A DNA stretch of 28,630 nucleotides from a virus. The notes beneath the pieces were generated by a model that had not been told where the DNA came from, ran no database searches, and was given only the letters and a program-made list of their open reading frames with translations. The first letter of the stretch is position 1, and every line of letters begins with the position of its first letter. A program made the position numbers and the translations under genes. The stretch lies in IMG/VR virus record IMGVR_UViG_3300030060_003957, positions 1 through 28,630 of that record; one strand, 5' to 3'. Positions 3,973 to 20,310 of this stretch are shown piece by piece.

Positions 3973-5621
3973 TTGAGTTTACCGATCATCCAATATTAAG
4001 GCCCCCTACAGACGAGGAAATAGTGTTCTTGGGGGAGAACCACCCCAAGCTACTTAAAGACCTACATGAGGCCCATGAGGGCCGCATACAGGCTTCTGAG
4101 GAAGATCCTGTCAGACATGGGTTCAACCTAGATGGCTGGGAGCGTATTAAAGATGGACTAGGAACATACAACGAGTGTCTGTGCCTTGGAGGAAACCGGA
4201 GTGGCAAGACAACTGGCTGTGCCAAAATTGTAATGGAAAGCGTTACCAATAACCCAGACGGTCACATTGTTTGTTTTTCCCAGAACGCTGATACCAGCGT
4301 AAAGGTGCAGCAAGCTGCGGTGTGGGAAATGATGCCAAGGGAGTTTAAAAAGAAGACCAAGAGTGTTGAGGGCTACATCAACTACTCAATGCAGAATGGG
4401 TTCACTGGTAGCAGTTTTATTTTTCCCGATACCCGGACTAGGGTTGATTTTAAAACCTACACCCAGTTTTCCAATAACCAAACCATCTTGGAAGGATTTG
4501 AGTTTGGGTTTAGGTCTGGGGACAGACTCAACATTGGTACGTGGTTGGATGAATATCTTGGTGATGATGCTTTGATAAACACTTTACGTTTTCGGTTGGC
4601 TACTAGGAATTCTAAGATGTTGATAGCCTTCACCCCTATTAATGGGTACACTCCGTTTATATCAGAATATCTGAAGGGGTCTGAAACTCTGAAGACGAGA
4701 AGGGCGGAGTTGTTGAATAAGGATTTGCCTGTACAACAGTATAGTCCCAAAAGGGATGCTTCTGTGGTCTATCTGCATTCTGATGAAAACCCGTTTGGTG
4801 GGTATAGTCGGATAGCCAAGGATCTGAGGGACAGGCCGGAAGAAGAAATATTGGTCCGTGCTTATGGTGTTCCTGTAAAAAGTGTAACATCGTTGCTTCC
4901 GCTTTTTAATACCGAAGTAAATGTTCTTAGCAATGAAAAGAATAAATATGGTATGTCCTTTCCTGACGTATCAGACCAAAGCAGGTTTACTTGTTATCAG
5001 GTAGTTGACCCGGCTGGGGCTCGTAACTTCACTGCGTTGTGGGCCGCTGTAGATAGGGACGGCTACGTGTACATATGCCGAGAGTGGCCTGACCGCAATA
5101 CATACGGTGAGTGGGCCTTGTTCGGAGATCCCAAGTGGAAAACGGGACCAGCAACTCGCAAGCTTGGGTTAAACGTAGAGGGGTATGCCAATTTGTTTTT
5201 AGAGATTGAGGAAGAGCTAGGAGTAGAGGTGTTTGAGCGTATTGGTGACTCTAGGTATTTTGCTAGGGAGAATGACAACAACGAGGATTTGTTTACGTTG
5301 TTTGACGATTTTGATATGTTGTTCCATCCTTCAGATGGACGCATGGAAGAGGTTGGTATTAGTGCGGTTGACGAATGGTTTACATACAATCCCAATAAAC
5401 CAATAGATGCCGCCAACAGGCCATTGTGCTATATACACAGTGATTGTGGGAATTTGATTGACAGTTTGTTAAATTATAATTCACAAGGTAAAGCGGATGA
5501 AGCTCTTAAAGACTTTTTTGACCTTATACGCTATTTGAGAATGGCAAATGGAGGAGAAGGTCCAGATCACATGGAAAACAGAAGCTTGCTAGCAACAAGC
5601 AAATCAAAAGGAGGATATTGA
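3969..5621 (+). CDS. terL: terminase large subunit (packaging ATPase and nuclease)
   Basis: 550 aa, usual size. The ATPase domain has a Walker A GGNRSGKT at 74-81, a Walker B strand ending in the catalytic acid pair (IGTWLDE, 189-195), and a coupling-type segment IAFTPINGYT at 219-228. The C-terminal RNase H-like nuclease shows the expected acids: D347 in QVVDPAG, D427 in ERIGDSRYF, and D515/D518 in KDFFDLIRYL. The protein pumps DNA into the prohead through the portal and cuts concatemers at the end of packaging. It starts with a four-base overlap of the 70 aa gene and its stop overlaps the next ATG. The Walker and nuclease motifs are seen directly; the exact subfamily is not assigned. Confidence 0.95.
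   Translation: MIEFTDHPILRPPTDEEIVFLGENHPKLLKDLHEAHEGRIQASEEDPVRHGFNLDGWERIKDGLGTYNECLCLGGNRSGKTTGCAKIVMESVTNNPDGHIVCFSQNADTSVKVQQAAVWEMMPREFKKKTKSVEGYINYSMQNGFTGSSFIFPDTRTRVDFKTYTQFSNNQTILEGFEFGFRSGDRLNIGTWLDEYLGDDALINTLRFRLATRNSKMLIAFTPINGYTPFISEYLKGSETLKTRRAELLNKDLPVQQYSPKRDASVVYLHSDENPFGGYSRIAKDLRDRPEEEILVRAYGVPVKSVTSLLPLFNTEVNVLSNEKNKYGMSFPDVSDQSRFTCYQVVDPAGARNFTALWAAVDRDGYVYICREWPDRNTYGEWALFGDPKWKTGPATRKLGLNVEGYANLFLEIEEELGVEVFERIGDSRYFARENDNNEDLFTLFDDFDMLFHPSDGRMEEVGISAVDEWFTYNPNKPIDAANRPLCYIHSDCGNLIDSLLNYNSQGKADEALKDFFDLIRYLRMANGGEGPDHMENRSLLATSKSKGGY
5607..5616 (+). promoter_or_regulatory. strong Shine-Dalgarno before the 124 aa gene
   Basis: AAAGGAGG lies about seven bases before ATG 5621 and decides this start over an in-frame TTG three bases earlier. 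The ATG overlaps the terminase TGA stop by one base. Confidence 0.65.
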
Positions 5622-5995
5622 TGGCTAAAATTAGAATAGGCAAATTAGCCGAAAATCTTGATGTTGATGTGGACAACTTAATTAGACTGGCTAAATCAAA
5701 GCTTTGTGCGTCGATGATGACGGGAAAAGGAGGCAAAGCGTTATGGATTAATGAAGAGGGACAAGAACTATTGAGTATGGCTGTAGACATTCCAGAAATA
5801 GTTCCCAAGCACTACAGTGGACGTGTAATAAAACCTGCCGCAAACCCTAGTTATGTATATTCTTACATTAATGAAATTGATAAGAAGGTTCCTGTATGCG
5901 TACCAAGAAAATTAAAAAAAGCTTTGGTTGGTAAAAATATTAAAATAGAGGCCATTGAAGATGCAACCGGAGTGTCGTACAGGTACGTCAGGTGA
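5621..5995 (+). CDS. small nucleic-acid-binding-type protein with IF-2 N-terminal-like domain
   Basis: 124 aa from ATG 5621, with a strong Shine-Dalgarno. The first ~30 residues (MAKIRIGKLAENLDVDVDNL) look like the small helix-turn-helix found at the N-terminus of translation initiation factor IF-2, which has the same 'K.R...LA..L.v....l' spacing. The C-terminal half (RVIKPAANPSYVYSYI, then VPVCVPRKLKKALVGKNIKI) is beta-rich and basic and looks like a small barrel. Together this suggests DNA or RNA binding. It sits between large terminase and portal, so a packaging or late regulatory role is plausible. The IF-2 resemblance is by eye; homology to IF-2 itself is not claimed. Confidence 0.6.
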   Translation: MAKIRIGKLAENLDVDVDNLIRLAKSKLCASMMTGKGGKALWINEEGQELLSMAVDIPEIVPKHYSGRVIKPAANPSYVYSYINEIDKKVPVCVPRKLKKALVGKNIKIEAIEDATGVSYRYVR

Positions 5996-9561: not shown

Positions 9562-10554
9562 ATGGCATTCTCAGATACATTTGATACCACAAATCCCGGT
9601 TCGGCTGTTTCCAATCGTGAGGACCTGATGGACGTTTTGACCATCTTGGCCCCCGAAGAAACTCCCGTACTTTCATCCGCATCTAAATCACGAGCAAACG
9701 CTACGTTTGTTGAGTGGACTGTAGACTCTCTTTCATCTCCTAGTACCACTGGGATAGCTGAAGGAGCTGACGTTACTACGTTCACCGACCAATTCAGTGG
9801 CCGAGCTCGTCTAGGCAACTACGTTCAGAAGTTCCGCCGCGACTACATGGTTTCCGACTTACAGGAAGCTGTTGACTCCGTTGGACCTGCTAAAGTAGCA
9901 CAGGCCGAAGCAAAGGCAATCCGCGAACTAAAGCGTGACATTGAAGCTACTCTCTGCTCTACCAACGACCGCTCTGCGGAAGATGGAGCTGGAACGGTTT
10001 ACAAGTTGCGTGGACTTGGTGACTGGATTGATTCCGCAGGACCTTCTGATGTTCCTGCTGCGTTCCGCACTCCTGCTGACAGCATCCACTCAACTGGTGC
10101 TTTCACGGAAACAGTGTTTAACAACCTAATCACATCTATTTTCCGTGTTACGGGAGCTAGCAATGGTCTAACTTTGGTTGCTGACACCGCTCTTCGCCGC
10201 ATCATTAGCGACTTTGCTCGCCTTGATCCAGATGGTTCTGGTGCTGGAACTTCCATCCGCAACGTCAACTATAATGGTGACGTAGCTCAGATTAAGCTTT
10301 CTGTTGAGGTTTACCAGTCCGATCACGGAACGGTGGCTATCATTAACGGAAATCCTGACTGTATGCCCGACACGACTAACAAGGACACTGGTTATCTGGT
10401 TCACCCAGAATACTACGGTGTGTCTGAGTTGATCCCAATGGGCAGCGCACGTCTACCTAATCAAGGTGGTGGCGAGCGTGGATTTGTTGACTGCGCGCTT
10501 ACGCTCGGAGTTTACCATCCCGGTGCACATGGAAAAATAACCGCAATCGCATAA
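9562..10554 (+). CDS. major capsid protein, SU10/DUF5309-like
   Basis: 330 aa. The N-terminal region NREDLMDVLTILAPEETPVL (18-37) and the following ATFVEWTVDSLSSP (47-60) match, from memory, the pattern of DUF5309 major capsid proteins ('REDL.d.l..iaPeeTPf ... feW..D.L'), HK97-fold shell proteins of SU10-like and many marine phages. Later segments fit the family (basic spine helix around 110-135; C-terminal strands with HPEYYGVSELIPMG). It is expected to be the most abundant virion protein. The gene starts two bases after the scaffold stop in TAATCATGG, with no Shine-Dalgarno sequence, which is odd for so highly expressed a gene. Codon choice is GC-richer at third positions than its neighbours. 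Confidence 0.88.
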   Translation: MAFSDTFDTTNPGSAVSNREDLMDVLTILAPEETPVLSSASKSRANATFVEWTVDSLSSPSTTGIAEGADVTTFTDQFSGRARLGNYVQKFRRDYMVSDLQEAVDSVGPAKVAQAEAKAIRELKRDIEATLCSTNDRSAEDGAGTVYKLRGLGDWIDSAGPSDVPAAFRTPADSIHSTGAFTETVFNNLITSIFRVTGASNGLTLVADTALRRIISDFARLDPDGSGAGTSIRNVNYNGDVAQIKLSVEVYQSDHGTVAIINGNPDCMPDTTNKDTGYLVHPEYYGVSELIPMGSARLPNQGGGERGFVDCALTLGVYHPGAHGKITAIA

Positions 10555-14615: not shown

Positions 14616-15871
14616 TGCTACGCTGGAAGTCCAGTTTAAAGCCTGCTGCGGCAGCTAGCGGCTTGCAAAACCCAACCTTGTTAGGCATCCGTAACCCAAC
14701 TAGCACCAGCAGCAGTAGCACCTCTATTAACATTTCATCAGCTACTCAAGGTGCTTTGCTCCTTGCATCAGTTACGGCAAGGTCAACTCAAGGGAATTTG
14801 TCAGCCCCAACTGAGGGAGGCTGGACTTTGCTGGCAAGCGTTGACAATGGCAGCAGCTCAGCCAGACCTTTAAACCGAGTTTATTACAAAACTGCTGGTG
14901 CAAGCGAGTCAACAGTCACTTGGACGCATGACGCTGACTACACAAGTGCAGTTGCCATTGAAATAGTTGGAGCCGACACATCTACGCTGGCGGTTACTAC
15001 TAATCAATCAAGCGATGATTTGGGAGTAGTAACTGTTCCAGCAAATGGTTTTGTAATTGCGGTTCACGCAAAAGGTGCTAGTGGCGACACTAGTGCTTCT
15101 ACTGTTAGAAGCTCAAATGGAAGTACCCAGACTCAGTACACTGCGTTGGGCGATGCGTATGGAACTAAGCGTTCTGGTACATTTATGGCGTGGGGTGATG
15201 TTGGGGCAGGTGACACAAATGGAACTGACTATATAGAAGGTGCAGGTAGCGGCAGTGGAAGTGCTACACACCACATTGCAATAAAGCCAAGCGGATCTAC
15301 AACCTACCTTCTTGAAGAAAATTTTGAAGGAACGGGAACGCCTACAAGTTGGTCATCTACTGGCACAGTTGATTATGACTCAACTCCTCCAGCCTCTTCG
15401 CCTAATGGCGGTGAGGTCATGGAGATTACAGACCGCACAAACTACTCTGAGTTTTCTACGACTGGATCAAATTTGTATTTTCAGTTTAGGCTAGGCACAT
15501 TGCCGTTTGCAGCAAATGATTGGGTTGGCCTACTTGACGGATCGGGTTCAATATTAGCTGGTATTGTCATTCAGCCAGATGGAGGTGTTCGTTTACAAAT
15601 GGACAACACTTACAGCACAATGTCTGACACTATTTCGGTAAATCAGTGGTATCACGCTAGGCTTGTGTACGTTTCTGGTGGGCCATCAACGCTTGAAATT
15701 AATACAACAGGCACCTTTAGTGGTGACGGCACCGACTATGTGGAACATACTGACTCGGACGCTACAGCAGCCGTAGCGACTGCTAGGATTAGAGGCCCAC
15801 GCGGCGGTGTAAGGACTGGGTATTATGATCGGGTAATTAGTAGCTCAAATACGATAGGCAACAATCCATGA
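14615..15871 (+). CDS. adhesin-like virion protein with LamG/ConA-type C-terminal domain
   Basis: 418 aa with two beta domains joined by a Gly/Ser linker. Residues about 40-225 form the first (SATQGALLLASVTARS ... HHIAIKPSG), an Ig- or jelly-roll-like domain. Residues about 230-410 form the second: LLEENFEGTGTPTSWSSTGT at the start, SNLYFQFRLGTLPFAANDW, then ISVNQWYHARLVYVSGG, a typical LamG/concanavalin-type lectin fold pattern. Carbohydrate binding at the host surface is likely. It overlaps the fibre-associated gene by one base and the FnIII gene by four. No signal peptide, so it acts as part of the virion. Fold assignment by pattern only. Confidence 0.65.
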   Translation: MLRWKSSLKPAAAASGLQNPTLLGIRNPTSTSSSSTSINISSATQGALLLASVTARSTQGNLSAPTEGGWTLLASVDNGSSSARPLNRVYYKTAGASESTVTWTHDADYTSAVAIEIVGADTSTLAVTTNQSSDDLGVVTVPANGFVIAVHAKGASGDTSASTVRSSNGSTQTQYTALGDAYGTKRSGTFMAWGDVGAGDTNGTDYIEGAGSGSGSATHHIAIKPSGSTTYLLEENFEGTGTPTSWSSTGTVDYDSTPPASSPNGGEVMEITDRTNYSEFSTTGSNLYFQFRLGTLPFAANDWVGLLDGSGSILAGIVIQPDGGVRLQMDNTYSTMSDTISVNQWYHARLVYVSGGPSTLEINTTGTFSGDGTDYVEHTDSDATAAVATARIRGPRGGVRTGYYDRVISSSNTIGNNP

Positions 15872-16284
15872 AAACACTCTTAGCAGCCATAATGTTTACA
15901 ACGACGACTATGATCGGAGCCGATCTAGTGCTAACGTGGCAGGATAACTCCGACAACGAGGATGGCTTTGAGATTTGGCGGCAGCAAAATGGAGGCGAGT
16001 GGTTATTAATTGCAGCAACTAACGCTGATGACGCTACCTTTACGGATGGTGTCATTCCTATTGGAACCACGCTAGCGTATCGGGTAAGAGCTTGGAATCA
16101 GTTCGGGGAATCGGATTACACTAACATTGTAAGCATTAGAACATATCCTCCAGCAGCTCCTACTAGCCTAAAGGGTGCAGCAATTAAAAGCGAAGAGGTT
16201 AGTTTTAAAACAAAACCTACACGCGAGGCTAGAATTAGAACTTATAGGGATCGGTACGGGAGGCTGGTTATAGAAAAATCATGA
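15868..16284 (+). CDS. fibronectin III-domain protein with probable signal peptide
   Basis: 138 aa. The N-terminus (MKTLLAAIMFTTTTMIGA) has one lysine, a hydrophobic core and a small-residue end, as in a Sec signal peptide cleaved before D19. Residues about 19-95 are a fibronectin type III domain: LVLTWQDNSDNEDGFEIWRQ, then TTLAYRVRAWNQFGESDYTN and a final VSIRT strand. The tail is basic (KTKPTREARIRTYRDRYGR). FnIII domains in virions usually help in weak surface binding; an exported phage FnIII protein is unusual. It lies in the fibre cluster and overlaps both neighbours by four bases. It could be an accessory tail protein whose N-terminus only resembles a signal. Confidence 0.7.
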   Translation: MKTLLAAIMFTTTTMIGADLVLTWQDNSDNEDGFEIWRQQNGGEWLLIAATNADDATFTDGVIPIGTTLAYRVRAWNQFGESDYTNIVSIRTYPPAAPTSLKGAAIKSEEVSFKTKPTREARIRTYRDRYGRLVIEKS

Positions 16285-16526
16285 GGAGCGTGAGTAGGAT
16301 AGGTGGCTCCAATGGAGATAGGTTCTTGGATCTTAGTGACTACGAACAAATCTTGGGTTCTATTTGCGAAGAGAACGACTGGGAGTACGAGGCATTTCGG
16401 GACTACGTATTTTTTGACAAAGAATGTTTCAATATAGATAACAGGCAAGACCTCAAAAGTGATTTGGAATGCAGAAGGCTTTCAATCAGCAAGCTTAACG
16501 AGTACGCCTTAAATTACGATACGTGA
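16281..16526 (+). CDS. hypothetical acidic protein, 81 aa
   Basis: Begins MRSVSRIGGSNGDRFLDLSD. Acidic and aromatic in the middle (CEENDWEYEAFRDYVFFDKE), helical at the end (DLKSDLECRRLSISKLNEYA), with three cysteines. Four-base overlaps on both sides (ATGA upstream, GTGA downstream). No motif recognised. It separates the adhesin genes from the holin pair; function unknown. Confidence 0.55.
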   Translation: MRSVSRIGGSNGDRFLDLSDYEQILGSICEENDWEYEAFRDYVFFDKECFNIDNRQDLKSDLECRRLSISKLNEYALNYDT

Positions 16527-16690
16527 AAGACATGGTAGAAAGATCAGTTATAGGGGTGCTAGGATCAGGAGCAGGTCTAGCACTAGCAGGAACAGACCAA
16601 GTGCTATCTGTGGTGGCATCGGCATTCACTGTGGTCTTCATGAGTCTTTCTATTTTAAAAATATTAAAGGAGATTAGAGACAAGAAATGA
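16523..16690 (+). CDS. small two-span holin-like membrane protein, 55 aa
   Basis: A short frame from GTG 16523 (GTGA overlap with the previous stop; an ATG at 16532 is the alternative start) to TGA 16688-16690, overlapping the next ATG by four bases. Two hydrophobic segments, about 9-22 (VIGVLGSGAGLALAG) and 28-46 (VLSVVASAFTVVFMSLSIL), are joined by a short polar turn (TDQ), and the C-terminus is basic (KILKEIRDKK). That is the layout of class II holins, which open the inner membrane to the endolysin. It sits directly ahead of a larger holin-type gene. The role follows from topology and place; sequence families of such holins are too short for a firm match. Confidence 0.7.
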   Translation: MKDMVERSVIGVLGSGAGLALAGTDQVLSVVASAFTVVFMSLSILKILKEIRDKK

Positions 16691-17097
16691 CATCAGAGTT
16701 AGTGGCAATGCTTGGAGGTGGAGTCACGGGATTTGTAATGAAACTAATCTCAGCACAAATGAATATCCAAGCGAATGCTATTGATGCGATGATTAAGAAA
16801 CAAGGAGTATCAGATGATTCCGCAGATAGAGCAGCAAAACGAACAGGAGAAGGAGGAGCGTGGATTAGACGTTTCATTGCAATCTGTATACTTTTCTCAG
16901 TCGTATTTGCTCCCTTTGTCATGGCGTTCTTTGATATACCAGTAACCGTTGAGGCTAGCAAATTAGGAGTATTTAAATTTTTAGGAATAGGAGTAGACAA
17001 ATGGAAAAACTTGGAGGGGTTTGTATTGTTGCCAGAAGTTCGGCAAGGGATGCTAGCTCTGCTGGGTTTTTACTTTGGAAGCTCGCAAGTTAAATAG
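16687..17097 (+). CDS. holin-like membrane protein resembling GTA-type 3TM holins
   Basis: 136 aa. The N-terminal segment LVAMLGGGVTGFVMKLIS could be a first span or re-entrant helix; 60-82 (IRRFIAICILFSVVFAPFVM) is a clear span; the C-terminus MLALLGFYFGSSQVK is a third. The order 'WIRRFIA.....' in the middle and 'LLGFYFGSS..K' at the end resembles the holin family with three spans found in gene transfer agents and marine phages. It is likely to act in host lysis, with the 55 aa protein as partner, antagonist or second holin. The gene ends before a good AGGAG element for the next gene. Confidence 0.7.
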   Translation: MTSELVAMLGGGVTGFVMKLISAQMNIQANAIDAMIKKQGVSDDSADRAAKRTGEGGAWIRRFIAICILFSVVFAPFVMAFFDIPVTVEASKLGVFKFLGIGVDKWKNLEGFVLLPEVRQGMLALLGFYFGSSQVK

Positions 17098-17108: not shown

Positions 17109-17174
17109 ATGGACTACGGAAAACGCAAAAAATGCCCAATGGGAAAACCTATGAAAAAAGGAGGAAAGCGATAA
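17109..17174 (+). CDS. basic microprotein, 21 aa
   Basis: ATG 17109 to TAA 17172-17174, preceded at good distance by AGGAGAC. The product begins MDYGKRKKCPMGKPMKK and ends GGKR, with about half its residues Lys or Arg, a single Cys and Pro-Gly turns. The stop overlaps the next ATG by one base (TAATG), supporting coupled translation of both microproteins. The 'KKCPMGKP' stretch recalls the Cys-Pro-x-Gly-Lys start of the 57 aa protein three genes downstream (KICPEGKAW), hinting at shared origin. Function unknown; nucleic-acid or anionic-surface binding is likely from charge. Confidence 0.55.
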   Translation: MDYGKRKKCPMGKPMKKGGKR

Positions 17175-17230
17175 TGGCTTACTCATACAAAAAACCAAAA
17201 GGTAAGGGCAAAGGTAGAGGAAGGAAATAA
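17174..17230 (+). CDS. basic microprotein, 18 aa
   Basis: ATG 17174 to TAA 17228-17230, one-base overlap with the stop of the previous gene, GGAGG just upstream within that gene. The product is MAYSYKKPKGKGKGRGRK: an aromatic start and a Lys-Gly repeat tail like an RGG or histone-tail peptide. It is at the size limit of a credible gene. In its favour: start-stop coupling, a strong Shine-Dalgarno in the preceding frame, and neighbours of the same composition. Function unknown. Confidence 0.5.
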   Translation: MAYSYKKPKGKGKGRGRK

Positions 17231-17236
17231 TTAGTC

Positions 17237-17419
17237 ATGGGAATGAACGTAAAGCACTATTCTAAAGACGGTAAGGAGCACAAAGGCGGCTACCACAAAA
17301 TGCCTGATGGAAAATTGCATTCTGGAAAAACGCATTCCCGTTCTTCTAAGCCATTGTATCATTACGGAGAGTTGTCTAAATCTGCTCAAAATAAAGCTAG
17401 AAAGTCTTGGAAGGTATAA
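17237..17419 (+). CDS. basic protein, 60 aa (KHY/MPDGKLHSGKTH family)
   Basis: ATG 17237 (a second in-frame ATG six bases later is possible), AAGGAA upstream. It reads as KHYSKDGKEHKGGYHKMPDG, then KLHSGKTHSRSSKPLYHYGE and a helix-forming end LSKSAQNKARKSWKV. From memory, small proteins with 'KHY.kDG....g..HkmPdG.lhtG.tHt..Sk.l.h.geLSk.A..KArk.W' are common in marine phages, with no known function. The His-rich centre could bind metal. The stop overlaps the next ATG (TATAATG). Confidence 0.75.
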   Translation: MGMNVKHYSKDGKEHKGGYHKMPDGKLHSGKTHSRSSKPLYHYGELSKSAQNKARKSWKV

Positions 17420-17592
17420 TGCCAAAGAAAAAAGCTAAGAGCGGAGGCAAAATTTGCCCAGAGGGCAAGGCTTGGGCCAGAAGGACATTTGATACGTATC
17501 CTTCTGCTTACGCTAACTTGGCCGCATCTAAGTATTGTAAAGATCCTAACTACGCTAAGAAGTCTAAGGGAGGAAAAAGGAAAGGACGCTAG
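17419..17592 (+). CDS. basic protein, 57 aa (KICPEGKAWA family)
   Basis: ATG 17419, one-base overlap with the previous stop; a longer in-frame start would lie inside that gene. Begins MPKKKAKSGGKICPEGKAWA, continues RRTFDTYPSAYANLAASKYC and ends in KKSKGGKRKGR. The two cysteines flank the conserved core 'CPeGKaWa.rtFd.yPSAYAN..a.kyC', which I remember from many marine phage genomes. Function is not known. The basic ends and short helical core suggest DNA packing or virion binding. Confidence 0.75.
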   Translation: MPKKKAKSGGKICPEGKAWARRTFDTYPSAYANLAASKYCKDPNYAKKSKGGKRKGR

Positions 17593-17843
17593 TGGCTCAA
17601 CTCAAACAGTGGTTAAAGGAAGACTGGGTAAGGATAGGTACGGATGGATCTATCAAGGGCAAGTGTGGAACTTCACCTAACAAAAAAAGACCAGACAGAT
17701 GCTTGCCTAGAAAAAAAGCAATGAGCCTTACAAAGTCTGAACGAGCTGCTACTGCAAGGAAGAAAAAAAGTGCAGGAGCTAAAGGTCAAAAAGTTGTATC
17801 AAATACACCAAGAGCAAAAGTAAGAAGTGGCAAAAAGTCCTAA
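17592..17843 (+). CDS. basic protein, 83 aa (DUF5872-like)
   Basis: GTG start at 17592, one-base overlap with the previous TAG, AAAGGA upstream. The N-terminal part LKQWLKEDWVRIGTDGSIKG followed by KCGTSPNKKRPDRCLP and KAMSLTKSERAATARKKKS fits, from memory, DUF5872: a 'W.rI.tdG.i.GkCG......PdrClp..kA.sLtk.eraa..rkK' pattern with two cysteines. The C-terminus is a Lys-rich tail. The function of that family is not established; it occurs in phages and large viruses. It overlaps the next gene by 17 bases. Confidence 0.75.
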   Translation: MAQLKQWLKEDWVRIGTDGSIKGKCGTSPNKKRPDRCLPRKKAMSLTKSERAATARKKKSAGAKGQKVVSNTPRAKVRSGKKS

Positions 17844-18120
17844 AGAATCTATGAGATGCGGTCAGGTGCGTAAAAGCACAAGACCTGGCAAGAAGATCAT
17901 GAAGCTGTACTGTGTTGATGGTAAGCGTAAGCTTGTACACGCAGGTGCTTCTGGGTACGGTCATAACTATTCTGATGCTGCTAGAAAGTCTTTTAGGGCT
18001 AGGCATAAATGCGATACTGCAAAACCTGGAACTGCTAAACACTTAGCTTGCACAGAGCTATGGAAGGGCAAGGGTGGCAGAACAAAGAGCAGTCCTAAAA
18101 GCAGAAAGGGTAAATACTAG
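17827..18120 (+). CDS. basic protein, 97 aa (KARKSFRARHKCD-type family)
   Basis: GTG start at 17827, 17 bases inside the previous gene; its stop directly abuts the nozzle gene ATG. The core reads RPGKKIMKLYCVDGKRKLVH, AGASGYGHNYSDAARKSFRA and RHKCDTAKPGTAKHLACTEL, with four cysteines (11, 29, 62, 75) that could make one zinc site. The pattern 'S..ArksFrARHkCdtAkpgTa.hlaC..LW' is, from memory, a family shared by marine phages and giant viruses, of unknown function. The C-terminus is Lys/Ser/Gly-rich. Together with its five upstream neighbours it forms a basic protein row. Confidence 0.75.
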   Translation: MAKSPKESMRCGQVRKSTRPGKKIMKLYCVDGKRKLVHAGASGYGHNYSDAARKSFRARHKCDTAKPGTAKHLACTELWKGKGGRTKSSPKSRKGKY

Positions 18121-20310
18121 ATGGCAAGGTACGATGTATACGGAGCACAGGACAATCGTCTTGTAGAAGATTTAGATCAAGGCTTTACTGGTTTTAATAA
18201 CAAGTTAAGACCTGATCAGCTTCGTTCTGGGATTCTTACTGAGTCTAATAATGGACGTATGGACTTGAATGGGGAGTGGCAACCTAGAAAGGGAATGGAA
18301 ATATTTTCTACTCCTTTTACTGCTTCTGTTTTTAAGTTGTATGCGACTGCAGATAGTTTAGCATTTAGATTGCACGATACTCTTCCATCTGTTTCTAGCT
18401 ATGCTAGAGACGGGACTACTTTTACAGTTAATTTTAGTGGGACTCATGGGATTACTACTGGAGACATTGTAAATTTAAGCGGTTTAAGTACTACAGGAAC
18501 TGTTGATCCTAATGGAAATCATAGTTGTACAGCTTCAACTACCACCCAAATACAGATTACAATAGCTGGATTAGATGCTGCTCCTTCAGGAACATTAACG
18601 GTTACAGGGGCTAAATTAAATACTGCTACATCTAATTTTATTCATGCAGCTTGCGAGTTTTCTGATCCCAATAATGAAGCAGCATCTTACATAGCTGCTG
18701 TAGGTACGCAGAGCACTATACTTGTAAAAACTTCAGACAGTGGAGCTACCACCGTTAATCTTACTTATCCTACTGGCGAAACCGTTCCAGAGGGAAGTAA
18801 TATAATGCAGGCTTTTAACAAGCTTTTTATATTTAGAAAAGGACAAATAGCCTTACAGTGGGATGGAGATGTTAGCACTACTACTTTTTCTTTAGTTGCA
18901 AATGGAACCTTTGTCCAACCCACTGCTATAGCAATTAGTAATCTTGATTTTGGATCTGGTTTAGGAACGGCTACAGTATCCAGTACAAGCTCTTTGTTGG
19001 TGGGTGACGTCCTAACCATAACTGATGCTGGCACATCTGGATTTAGCCTTGGAGACAAGGTAACCGTTAGTACAATAACTAATTCAACAACATTTACATT
19101 TTCTTCAAATAAATCAGGAACAAGCAAAACTGCTACAGTTTCAAAACCTGTATCTATAGGCTTAGGCTTTACGCACATGCCAGCCCCTGAGTTTGGCACT
19201 TACCACCAGCGTAGACTTGTCGTTCCGTACAGGTACGATATAACTGGGTCTTCTGGATCTGCTACGATTACAGATAAAAAGATTCTTGATGAAGCACTTT
19301 TTTCGGATATACTAGATCATAACACCTATGATAGAGTTTTTGGACAGTTTCGGTTTAATGCTGGTGAAGCTGATTTTATTGTGGGCTTTCATTCTTTTTC
19401 AGATGATCAGCTAGTTGTTTTTAATCGAAACAGTATACATACCGTTAAGAATAGTCTATCTTTAGAAAGTAGTATTTCTCAAGTTATAACAAATGATGTA
19501 GGTTGTATTGCCCGAAACAGCATACAGCAGATAGGGAACAAGCTAATGTTTCTTTCTGATAACGGAGTGTACGCTTTAGATTTTATTGACTTGTACAATC
19601 TTAGGGGTCAAGATGTTCCTTTGTCAGAGTCTATACAGGGCACTATAGCTACAATAAATCAGGCTCATGCCCACAAAGCTGTCTCTGCTTACTTCGACAA
19701 CAGGTACTATTTGGCTGTTCCAGTAGGAGACTCCACCACAAACAACCGATTGATTATTTATAATTTTTTAAATCGCCAGTGGGAGTCCATAGATTCTGTA
19801 GCTGACAACGATTGGGAGTACACTCACTTAGTGGTAGGTGGAGCTGGGGATAAAAGAGGCGTATACGTTGTGAATAAAACTGGTGGCGTACACAAGTACG
19901 AAGAAAGATCAGATGACTCTGATAGGTTTTTAGATGCTATTGGTGGCAGCAATCAAACAGCTATTGTTCCTTCGTCTGCTACAACTAGAATGTTTACAGT
20001 ACGCTCTATAGATCGTAAAAAATGGAATAACTTTGAGCTGCATTTACAGTCCTCAGAGACTAATGTTTCTGATGCAACTCTTAGTGCAATCACAGAAAAT
20101 ATTGATGGTATAATAAGCTTAGGAACAATTTCAGATCTTAATGGAGGAGAGCTTGCTATAGACGAAGATGTTTCACTTAGAGGAAGATTTGGAAACAAAA
20201 GAGCTTACGGATTACAGTTTAAACTAGAGACAACAAAAGGAAGACCTAGGCTAAGAGCATTAAAGGTAGCAGGAGGCATAACATTTAGAAACACACAGAA
20301 AGCAGAATAA
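18121..20310 (+). CDS. tail nozzle / tail tubular-type structural protein
   Basis: 729 aa. The N-terminal GFTGFNNKLRPDQLRSGILT with NLNGEWQPRKGM (about 21-60) is the 'G.....l.p.ql..G......n..l..g.wqpRkG' pattern seen at the start of podoviral tail nozzle-like proteins. Two beta insertions follow (about 95-165, with THGITTGDIVNLSG, and about 270-345). The core FGQFRFNAGEADFIVGFHSF, then QLVVFNRNSIHTV and FLSDNGVYALDFIDLYNLRG (about 400-500) resembles a propeller-like repeat common in these proteins. The C-terminus is a beta domain. It would form the lower tail tube through which DNA leaves. The start abuts the preceding gene. The family call is by pattern, moderately sure. Confidence 0.7.
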   Translation: MARYDVYGAQDNRLVEDLDQGFTGFNNKLRPDQLRSGILTESNNGRMDLNGEWQPRKGMEIFSTPFTASVFKLYATADSLAFRLHDTLPSVSSYARDGTTFTVNFSGTHGITTGDIVNLSGLSTTGTVDPNGNHSCTASTTTQIQITIAGLDAAPSGTLTVTGAKLNTATSNFIHAACEFSDPNNEAASYIAAVGTQSTILVKTSDSGATTVNLTYPTGETVPEGSNIMQAFNKLFIFRKGQIALQWDGDVSTTTFSLVANGTFVQPTAIAISNLDFGSGLGTATVSSTSSLLVGDVLTITDAGTSGFSLGDKVTVSTITNSTTFTFSSNKSGTSKTATVSKPVSIGLGFTHMPAPEFGTYHQRRLVVPYRYDITGSSGSATITDKKILDEALFSDILDHNTYDRVFGQFRFNAGEADFIVGFHSFSDDQLVVFNRNSIHTVKNSLSLESSISQVITNDVGCIARNSIQQIGNKLMFLSDNGVYALDFIDLYNLRGQDVPLSESIQGTIATINQAHAHKAVSAYFDNRYYLAVPVGDSTTNNRLIIYNFLNRQWESIDSVADNDWEYTHLVVGGAGDKRGVYVVNKTGGVHKYEERSDDSDRFLDAIGGSNQTAIVPSSATTRMFTVRSIDRKKWNNFELHLQSSETNVSDATLSAITENIDGIISLGTISDLNGGELAIDEDVSLRGRFGNKRAYGLQFKLETTKGRPRLRALKVAGGITFRNTQKAE

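Follow-up and report, generated by a model that had tools for sequence, protein, structure and literature searches.

A coupled cassette of small cationic proteins in a phage genome has relatives among the domains of phage head proteins

Basic proteins inside phage heads are already known. The internal proteins IPI, IPII and IPIII of T4 and its core peptides belong to the prohead core and are cut by gp21, which cleaves head proteins after L/I-x-E, and the basic internal proteins number about 300 copies each in a T4 head (PMC9026906). In T4-like cyanophages, proteins of cluster T4-GC119 such as S-SCSM1 gp029 carry basic domains in one long chain, and some portal-MuF and XkdF prohead-protease proteins of other phages contain a further domain of this type. 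Here we have analyzed six short frames, A to F, that follow one another on the plus strand at positions 17109-18120 of IMG/VR record IMGVR_UViG_3300030060_003957, of which positions 1 to 28,630 (28,630 nucleotides) are referred to as the window. Like the T4 proteins, their products are small, basic and several per phage, and the cyanophage homologues extend this likeness to L/I-x-E type sites and to presence in virions. Unlike the T4 proteins, the window set is made from coupled separate genes, without a capsid-targeting propeptide and without L/I-x-E before the conserved domains; no sequence relation between the two sets turned up, in the course of work that included no dedicated comparison. 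The reading that we favor, with slightly better than even confidence, is that the frames form a translationally coupled late cassette of cationic head-internal proteins packaged with the DNA.

The sequence-only reading had described six coupled basic frames, four of them with cysteine, and the frames exist as described in the open reading frames (ORFs) of the window (Table 1). Their isoelectric points range from 10.1 to 11.2 and their net charges from +8 to +22, adding up to +82 for one copy of each, whereas most other plus-strand genes listed in the window encode acidic proteins. One base is shared at the A/B, C/D (TATAATG) and D/E (TAGTG) junctions, B and C are separated by a 6-base gap, E and F overlap by 17 bases, and F directly adjoins the gene for a nozzle or head-closure protein. 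Cysteine is present in A (1), D (2), E (2) and F (4).

Table 1. Frames of the cassette and the genes on either side of it in the window (aa, amino acids)
Feature	Position	Strand	Length (aa)	pI	Net charge	Remarks
A	17109-17174	+	21	10.5	+8	MDYGKRKKCPMGK...; CPMGK invariant across relatives
B	17174-17230	+	18	10.8	+8	MAYSYKKPKGKGKGRGRK; ATG inside A stop (TAATG)
C	17237-17419	+	60	10.1	+10	
D	17419-17592	+	57	10.3	+14	'YPSAYAN' protein
E	17592-17843	+	83	11.2	+20	GTG start within D stop
F	17827-18120	+	97	10.5	+22	GTG start
Tail nozzle / head-closure-like protein	18121-20310	+				phrog_3287, weaker phrog_578; immediately 3' of F
Holin-like protein	16687-17097	+	136			phrog_38283 (function unknown); 5' of cassette
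Holin-like protein	16523-16690	+	55			5' of cassette

That the proteins act together, as had been proposed for the coupled set, is supported by natural fusions, namely an E-type domain followed by the C domain in one chain (relative L118), E fused to F (L133), and E, D and DUF6321 combined in the cyanophages. The cyanophage chains, such as S-SM1 SSM1_115 (its E part recognized by eye), S-SM2 SSM2_109 and S-SCSM1 gp029, contain in succession E, D, a CWxGYEKKG piece and DUF6321, and a profile search found the order E-D-DUF6321 in 66 of 88 cyanophage-type chains. The E, D and DUF6321 domains are homologous to window E and D and to the gene that some relatives carry in the place of F. The chain gene corresponds to cluster T4-GC119 (phrog_727 / phrog_3477) and lies between terminase genes in the records checked; it differs from the window arrangement in being one long chain with acidic linkers, and the window has F instead of DUF6321. 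Cyanophage S-CREM2 splits the chain into two proteins, ORF160 with E (a weak match, 0.004), CWxGYE and D (2.1e-20), and ORF137 with a C-terminal DUF6321 (2.9e-23).

Homologous chains have been found in virions. The mass spectrometry (MS) table of S-CREM2 virions lists ORF160 (128342-129235) with 7 peptides and 13.1% coverage and ORF137 (108049-109521) with 4 peptides and 4.1% coverage (PMC10665884), at coordinates that agree with the sequence record. S-SCSM1 gp029, with the E-D-DUF6321 order, carries the label 'virion protein' in its record, and its authors report 45 virion proteins found by mass spectrometry (PMC9602691). The GenBank note 'similar to S-SM1 protein' stands on GC119 genes and is absent from terminase genes, which is at most suggestive.

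The F-type domain in turn occurs within proteins of the portal and of head maturation. The F profile matches CL131 gp012 (2.7e-20) in the segment between the portal and inorganic pyrophosphatase (InPase) domains, and the product of this portal gene was detected in virions by liquid chromatography with tandem mass spectrometry (LC-MS/MS; PMC6293099). The protein itself (L174:801-4982) is a chain of 1393 amino acids that joins portal, F-type domain, InPase and MuF. Two XkdF prohead-protease proteins match as well, Aeromonas phage 2L372D gp102 (L171:5752-6675; 1.1e-20), where the F-type domain lies ahead of the protease, and ICP1 ORF125 (L278:1709-2545; 3.7e-16), where it lies behind; since the domain is found at opposite ends, the two were probably joined more than once. 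Window F has a gene to itself and lacks any portal, MuF or protease part. Its AlphaFold2 model (predicted local distance difference test score, pLDDT, 83.8) matches the predicted folds of an XkdF protein, ICP1 ORF125 and giant-virus and iridovirus proteins, several with weak E-values, together with the 1393-residue entry A0A2H4PAR7, which has the same length as CL131 gp012. F-like folds thus extend to viruses of eukaryotes, a Tunisvirus and a chloriridovirus.

The association with prohead proteases on either side raises the question whether the proteins serve in head assembly as partners of the core or scaffold that do not bind DNA, either departing from the prohead or remaining in it. In S-TIP37 the DUF6321 gene is situated between the scaffold and capsid genes, and T4 IPIII affects head assembly. 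The strong positive charge of every member and the occurrence of homologous chains in mature virions nevertheless fit DNA contact better, and we regard a pure assembly role as quite unlikely. The main rival to DNA organization is a different one, in which the proteins are packaged but serve chiefly as injected effectors that act in the new host, in anti-restriction or takeover, like T4 IPI, Alt and polyvalent MuF fusions. The portal-InPase-MuF architecture in which F is embedded was read by Iyer et al. in terms of injected effectors (PMC5512222), and the T4 internal proteins are ejected into the host, where IPI blocks a restriction enzyme (PMC9026906). An arms race would also predict the exchange of cassette contents between close relatives that is described below. 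Yet F and the E/D cores are well conserved in distant phages, unlike lineage-specific anti-restriction proteins, the F-like folds of eukaryotic viruses occur where bacterial defence is no target, and no enzyme-like match was found. Injection as the chief function appears rather unlikely.

If the cyanophage chain is a head polyprotein, candidate cut sites should be found between its parts. Note that the motif used here, [LIVMF]xE, is wider than L/I, so that it fits gp21 in kind only. Just ahead of the domain core it is present in 50 of 51 distinct sequence segments for E, 51 of 55 for D and 50 of 50 for CWxGYE, against shuffle expectations of 9.1, 25.0 and 18.4. The DUF6321 junction is weaker (26 of 64, with 21.1 expected). 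After clustering at 60% identity the motif precedes E in 21 of 22 clusters, D in 18 of 21, CWxGYE in 28 of 28 and DUF6321 in 16 of 22, counts that were reached by none of 2000 shuffles for the first three and by 1 for DUF6321. At the CWxGYE junction, a hydrophobic residue stands two positions before the glutamate in all 28 clusters, and in S-CREM2 ORF160 the three basic parts are preceded by the sites LSE|A, LEE|K and ISE|G, with E127, E218 and E252 as their glutamates. Such a pattern is the expected look of a head polyprotein that would be cut into basic pieces.

The fusions and the virion data share the context of the head and its assembly, and D, E and F are therefore taken to be head-internal cationic proteins. 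In the mechanism that we propose, they and replacements such as DUF6321 would be free-standing forms of basic domains which in other phages are parts of head proteins. In cyanophages, E, D and DUF6321 would be made as one virion chain, which a prohead protease probably cuts at L/I-x-E type sites inside the head to release the basic pieces; in phages like the present one the pieces would be made ready-cut, each from its own gene in the coupled row. Most likely the proteins are taken into the prohead or head together with the DNA, where their positive charge would help to neutralize and organize it, and they may afterwards leave the head along with it. Organizing the DNA is the most straightforward function for proteins so charged, and remains putative. 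With about 300 copies of each of the six proteins, the charge would offset roughly one third of the phosphates of the 34.4-kb genome, a record that may be incomplete. Of the roles suggested in the sequence-only reading, condensation of DNA in the head is rendered plausible by homologous domains in virion-detected cyanophage, portal-MuF and prohead-protease proteins; for action on the nozzle, the host membrane or ribosomes, no evidence was found.

Several observations weigh against packaging and cleavage as proposed here. The window frames start straight in their basic part, with no propeptide ahead of it, and a search of the window's 34.4-kb record for an XkdF protease found none. For the cyanophage chains, cleavage at the junctions is deduced from sequence alone, the linkers are rich in glutamate, the match to E is weak with the hidden Markov model used, and the DUF6321 junction is the weaker one given above. 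The S-CREM2 peptides may fall outside the basic domains, given the coverages of 13.1% and 4.1%. Proteomics and expression data turned up neither for this phage nor for its near relatives; nothing connects A and B to a virion protein, and C is linked to one only via its fusion to E.

We further surveyed the neighborhoods of the cassette genes in IMG/VR, where scans yielded 416 confirmed relatives for E and 378 for F, with 80 loci kept for each. As these loci were picked by their likeness to the window and are in many cases related among themselves, the counts do not represent independent events. D lies directly 5' of E in 77 of the 101 E loci that have upstream sequence, and in 72 of them the two genes overlap by 1 base. 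Of the 50 loci holding both E and F, 22 have them side by side, and the nozzle gene immediately follows F in 24 of the 33 loci that contain these two. A and B turned up in near relatives only, and C in few others. The idea that the larger families occur together in a conserved order is supported, but the six-frame set is not fixed: D-E is the widespread core. The position of F is taken by a shorter protein, F', in L041, L051 and L053 and by DUF6321 in L063, L072 and C75C1, divergent versions of E and D are found in L085, L087 and L089, further tiny basic frames vary in presence among related cassettes, and the contents of the slot are exchanged between close relatives. The D-E core with F' or DUF6321 is also present in the cultured pelagiphages HTVC106P (gp26, gp25, gp30) and HTVC027P (gp49, gp50, gp52), and D-E linkage in phage C75C1. 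Roseobacter phage CRP-902 encodes the C-type protein on its own, as a single gene.

Among the tiny frames, two basic families recur in the cassettes, one with SPKQ..IA.VAPPR.KIT.ADF (L051:663-800, L072:3634-3774, L168:6354-6482) and one with KASKAHAGQAK (L051:772-894, L072:3737-3859). In C75C1 a basic protein of 90 amino acids rich in Pro, Gln and Ala (L001:20868-21140) occupies the place before the nozzle gene.

The holin-like genes next to the cassette in the window, and the M15 endolysin gene that adjoins the genes for cassette proteins in HTVC106P, would suit non-virion late proteins acting on the host membrane, the ribosome or lysis and grouped merely by their place in a late operon. In the L060 lineage, the cassette is instead located between the genes for the major head protein and a tail fibre connector, further lineages encode these domains next to neck, capsid or terminase genes, and the domains also occur inside head proteins, so that we consider a non-virion function highly improbable.

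A separate question is whether the smallest frames are genes at all. Against relatives, the pooled ratio of nonsynonymous to synonymous polymorphism (pN/pS) is 0.36 for A (13 pairs), 0.19 for B (one pair only), 0.24 for C, 0.17 for D, 0.25 for E and 0.19 for F, values described as within the range of the genes neighboring the cassette (0.15-0.30). Purifying selection is seen on all six frames, although for B one pair is too little to judge by; a dN/dS (the corresponding ratio of substitution rates) near 1 is what the sequence-only reading had named as speaking against its proposal, as it had a lack of translation of the two smallest frames. These two are conserved in near relatives. B was not picked up by the ORF lister; even so, a basic frame of 15-22 amino acids with a 1-base overlap with the A stop is present in 12 of 18 database A loci, a number that includes the window and its own copy L002, both with B. 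In view of pN/pS in the neighbors' range and of the recurring coupled B, it is very likely that A and B are genuine genes, though this is less certain for B. Both are very short, and B is kept in near relatives only and missing from several A loci, as would be seen with spurious frames within a translation or spacer region. The pN/pS of A over its 13 pairs, the invariant CPMGK and the 1-base coupling of B retained in most A loci make this very unlikely. The CPxGK start common to A and D had further suggested a duplication, which is not supported, as hhalign returned a probability of 0.7% across six columns.

As to the families themselves, D and E are near full-length profile matches to phrog_27331 (1.2e-23) and phrog_23735 (1.4e-20), both of unknown function, the latter being common to window E and the E-type protein of L087, and F matches phrog_220, 'minor head protein and DNA pilot', at 2.5e-8. 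Pfam and NCBIfam scans of the window proteins gave nothing above a cut-off: E has no match to DUF5872 (PF19197) at E<=1, no window protein matches DUF6321 (PF19846) above its cut-off, and F reaches 12.5 bits for DUF5754 (PF19058), where the cut-off is 27.4. Relatives do match, the E-type proteins of L087 and L133 passing the cut-off for DUF5872 (9e-14 and 1.5e-15) and the slot genes of C75C1 and L063 that for DUF6321 (1e-29 and 1.8e-12); F' of L051 is weakly DUF5754-like at 21.1 bits. E is remotely related to DUF5872. DUF5872 and DUF5754 were also reported from an algal giant virus (PMC12085832). In line with the claim that the larger families have no known function, none emerged from the family searches or from the literature on DUF6321, DUF5872 and DUF5754. 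Among 50,697 phage records, the D-type domain occurs in 365 and DUF6321 in 197.

Searches of the PDB with sequence profiles returned nothing for F and, for E, two de novo designs only (E 0.4-0.6). In fold searches of the PDB, F had no Foldseek match below E 0.6 and only an unrelated kinase at Z 2.3, and the predicted model of E (pLDDT 78.3) found nothing at Z 2 or more, which does not show a new fold. The E model does match, at weak E-values, DUF6321 proteins of cyanophages and the 'virion protein' of S-SCSM1.

Elsewhere in the window, an SU10-type major capsid protein is encoded at 9562-10554 (6.5e-49). A protein of 138 amino acids at 15868-16284 shows weak matches to profiles of a GH85 C-terminal domain, a Hoc-like decoration protein and tail fibre J, and is perhaps fibronectin-like, and the first 25 N-terminal residues encoded at 5618-5995 are weakly similar to the N-terminal region of IF2 (0.0035).

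A literature search, which did not cover subscription journals, found no publication on a basic polyprotein that cyanophages cut in the prohead, and none on a cassette of coupled microproteins that would be the equivalent of a cut virion chain. What would be new is this equivalence, together with the uncharacterized families that take part in it. More tentatively, viruses of bacteria and algae may draw on a common set of small cationic virion domains, delivered as a protease-cut polyprotein, from coupled microprotein genes or, as a third route, by fusion to portals and proteases. The DUF5872, DUF6321, DUF5754-like and YPSAYAN families are common in marine viruses and had no function, and the evidence presented here ties them to the phage head. 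Cut sites in the cyanophage virion protein and microproteins in virions of the cultured pelagiphages are predictions that can be checked. If they hold true, the cassette would represent a system of internal proteins that is widespread among marine phages, and one function could be achieved either by proteolysis in the head or by coupled translation.
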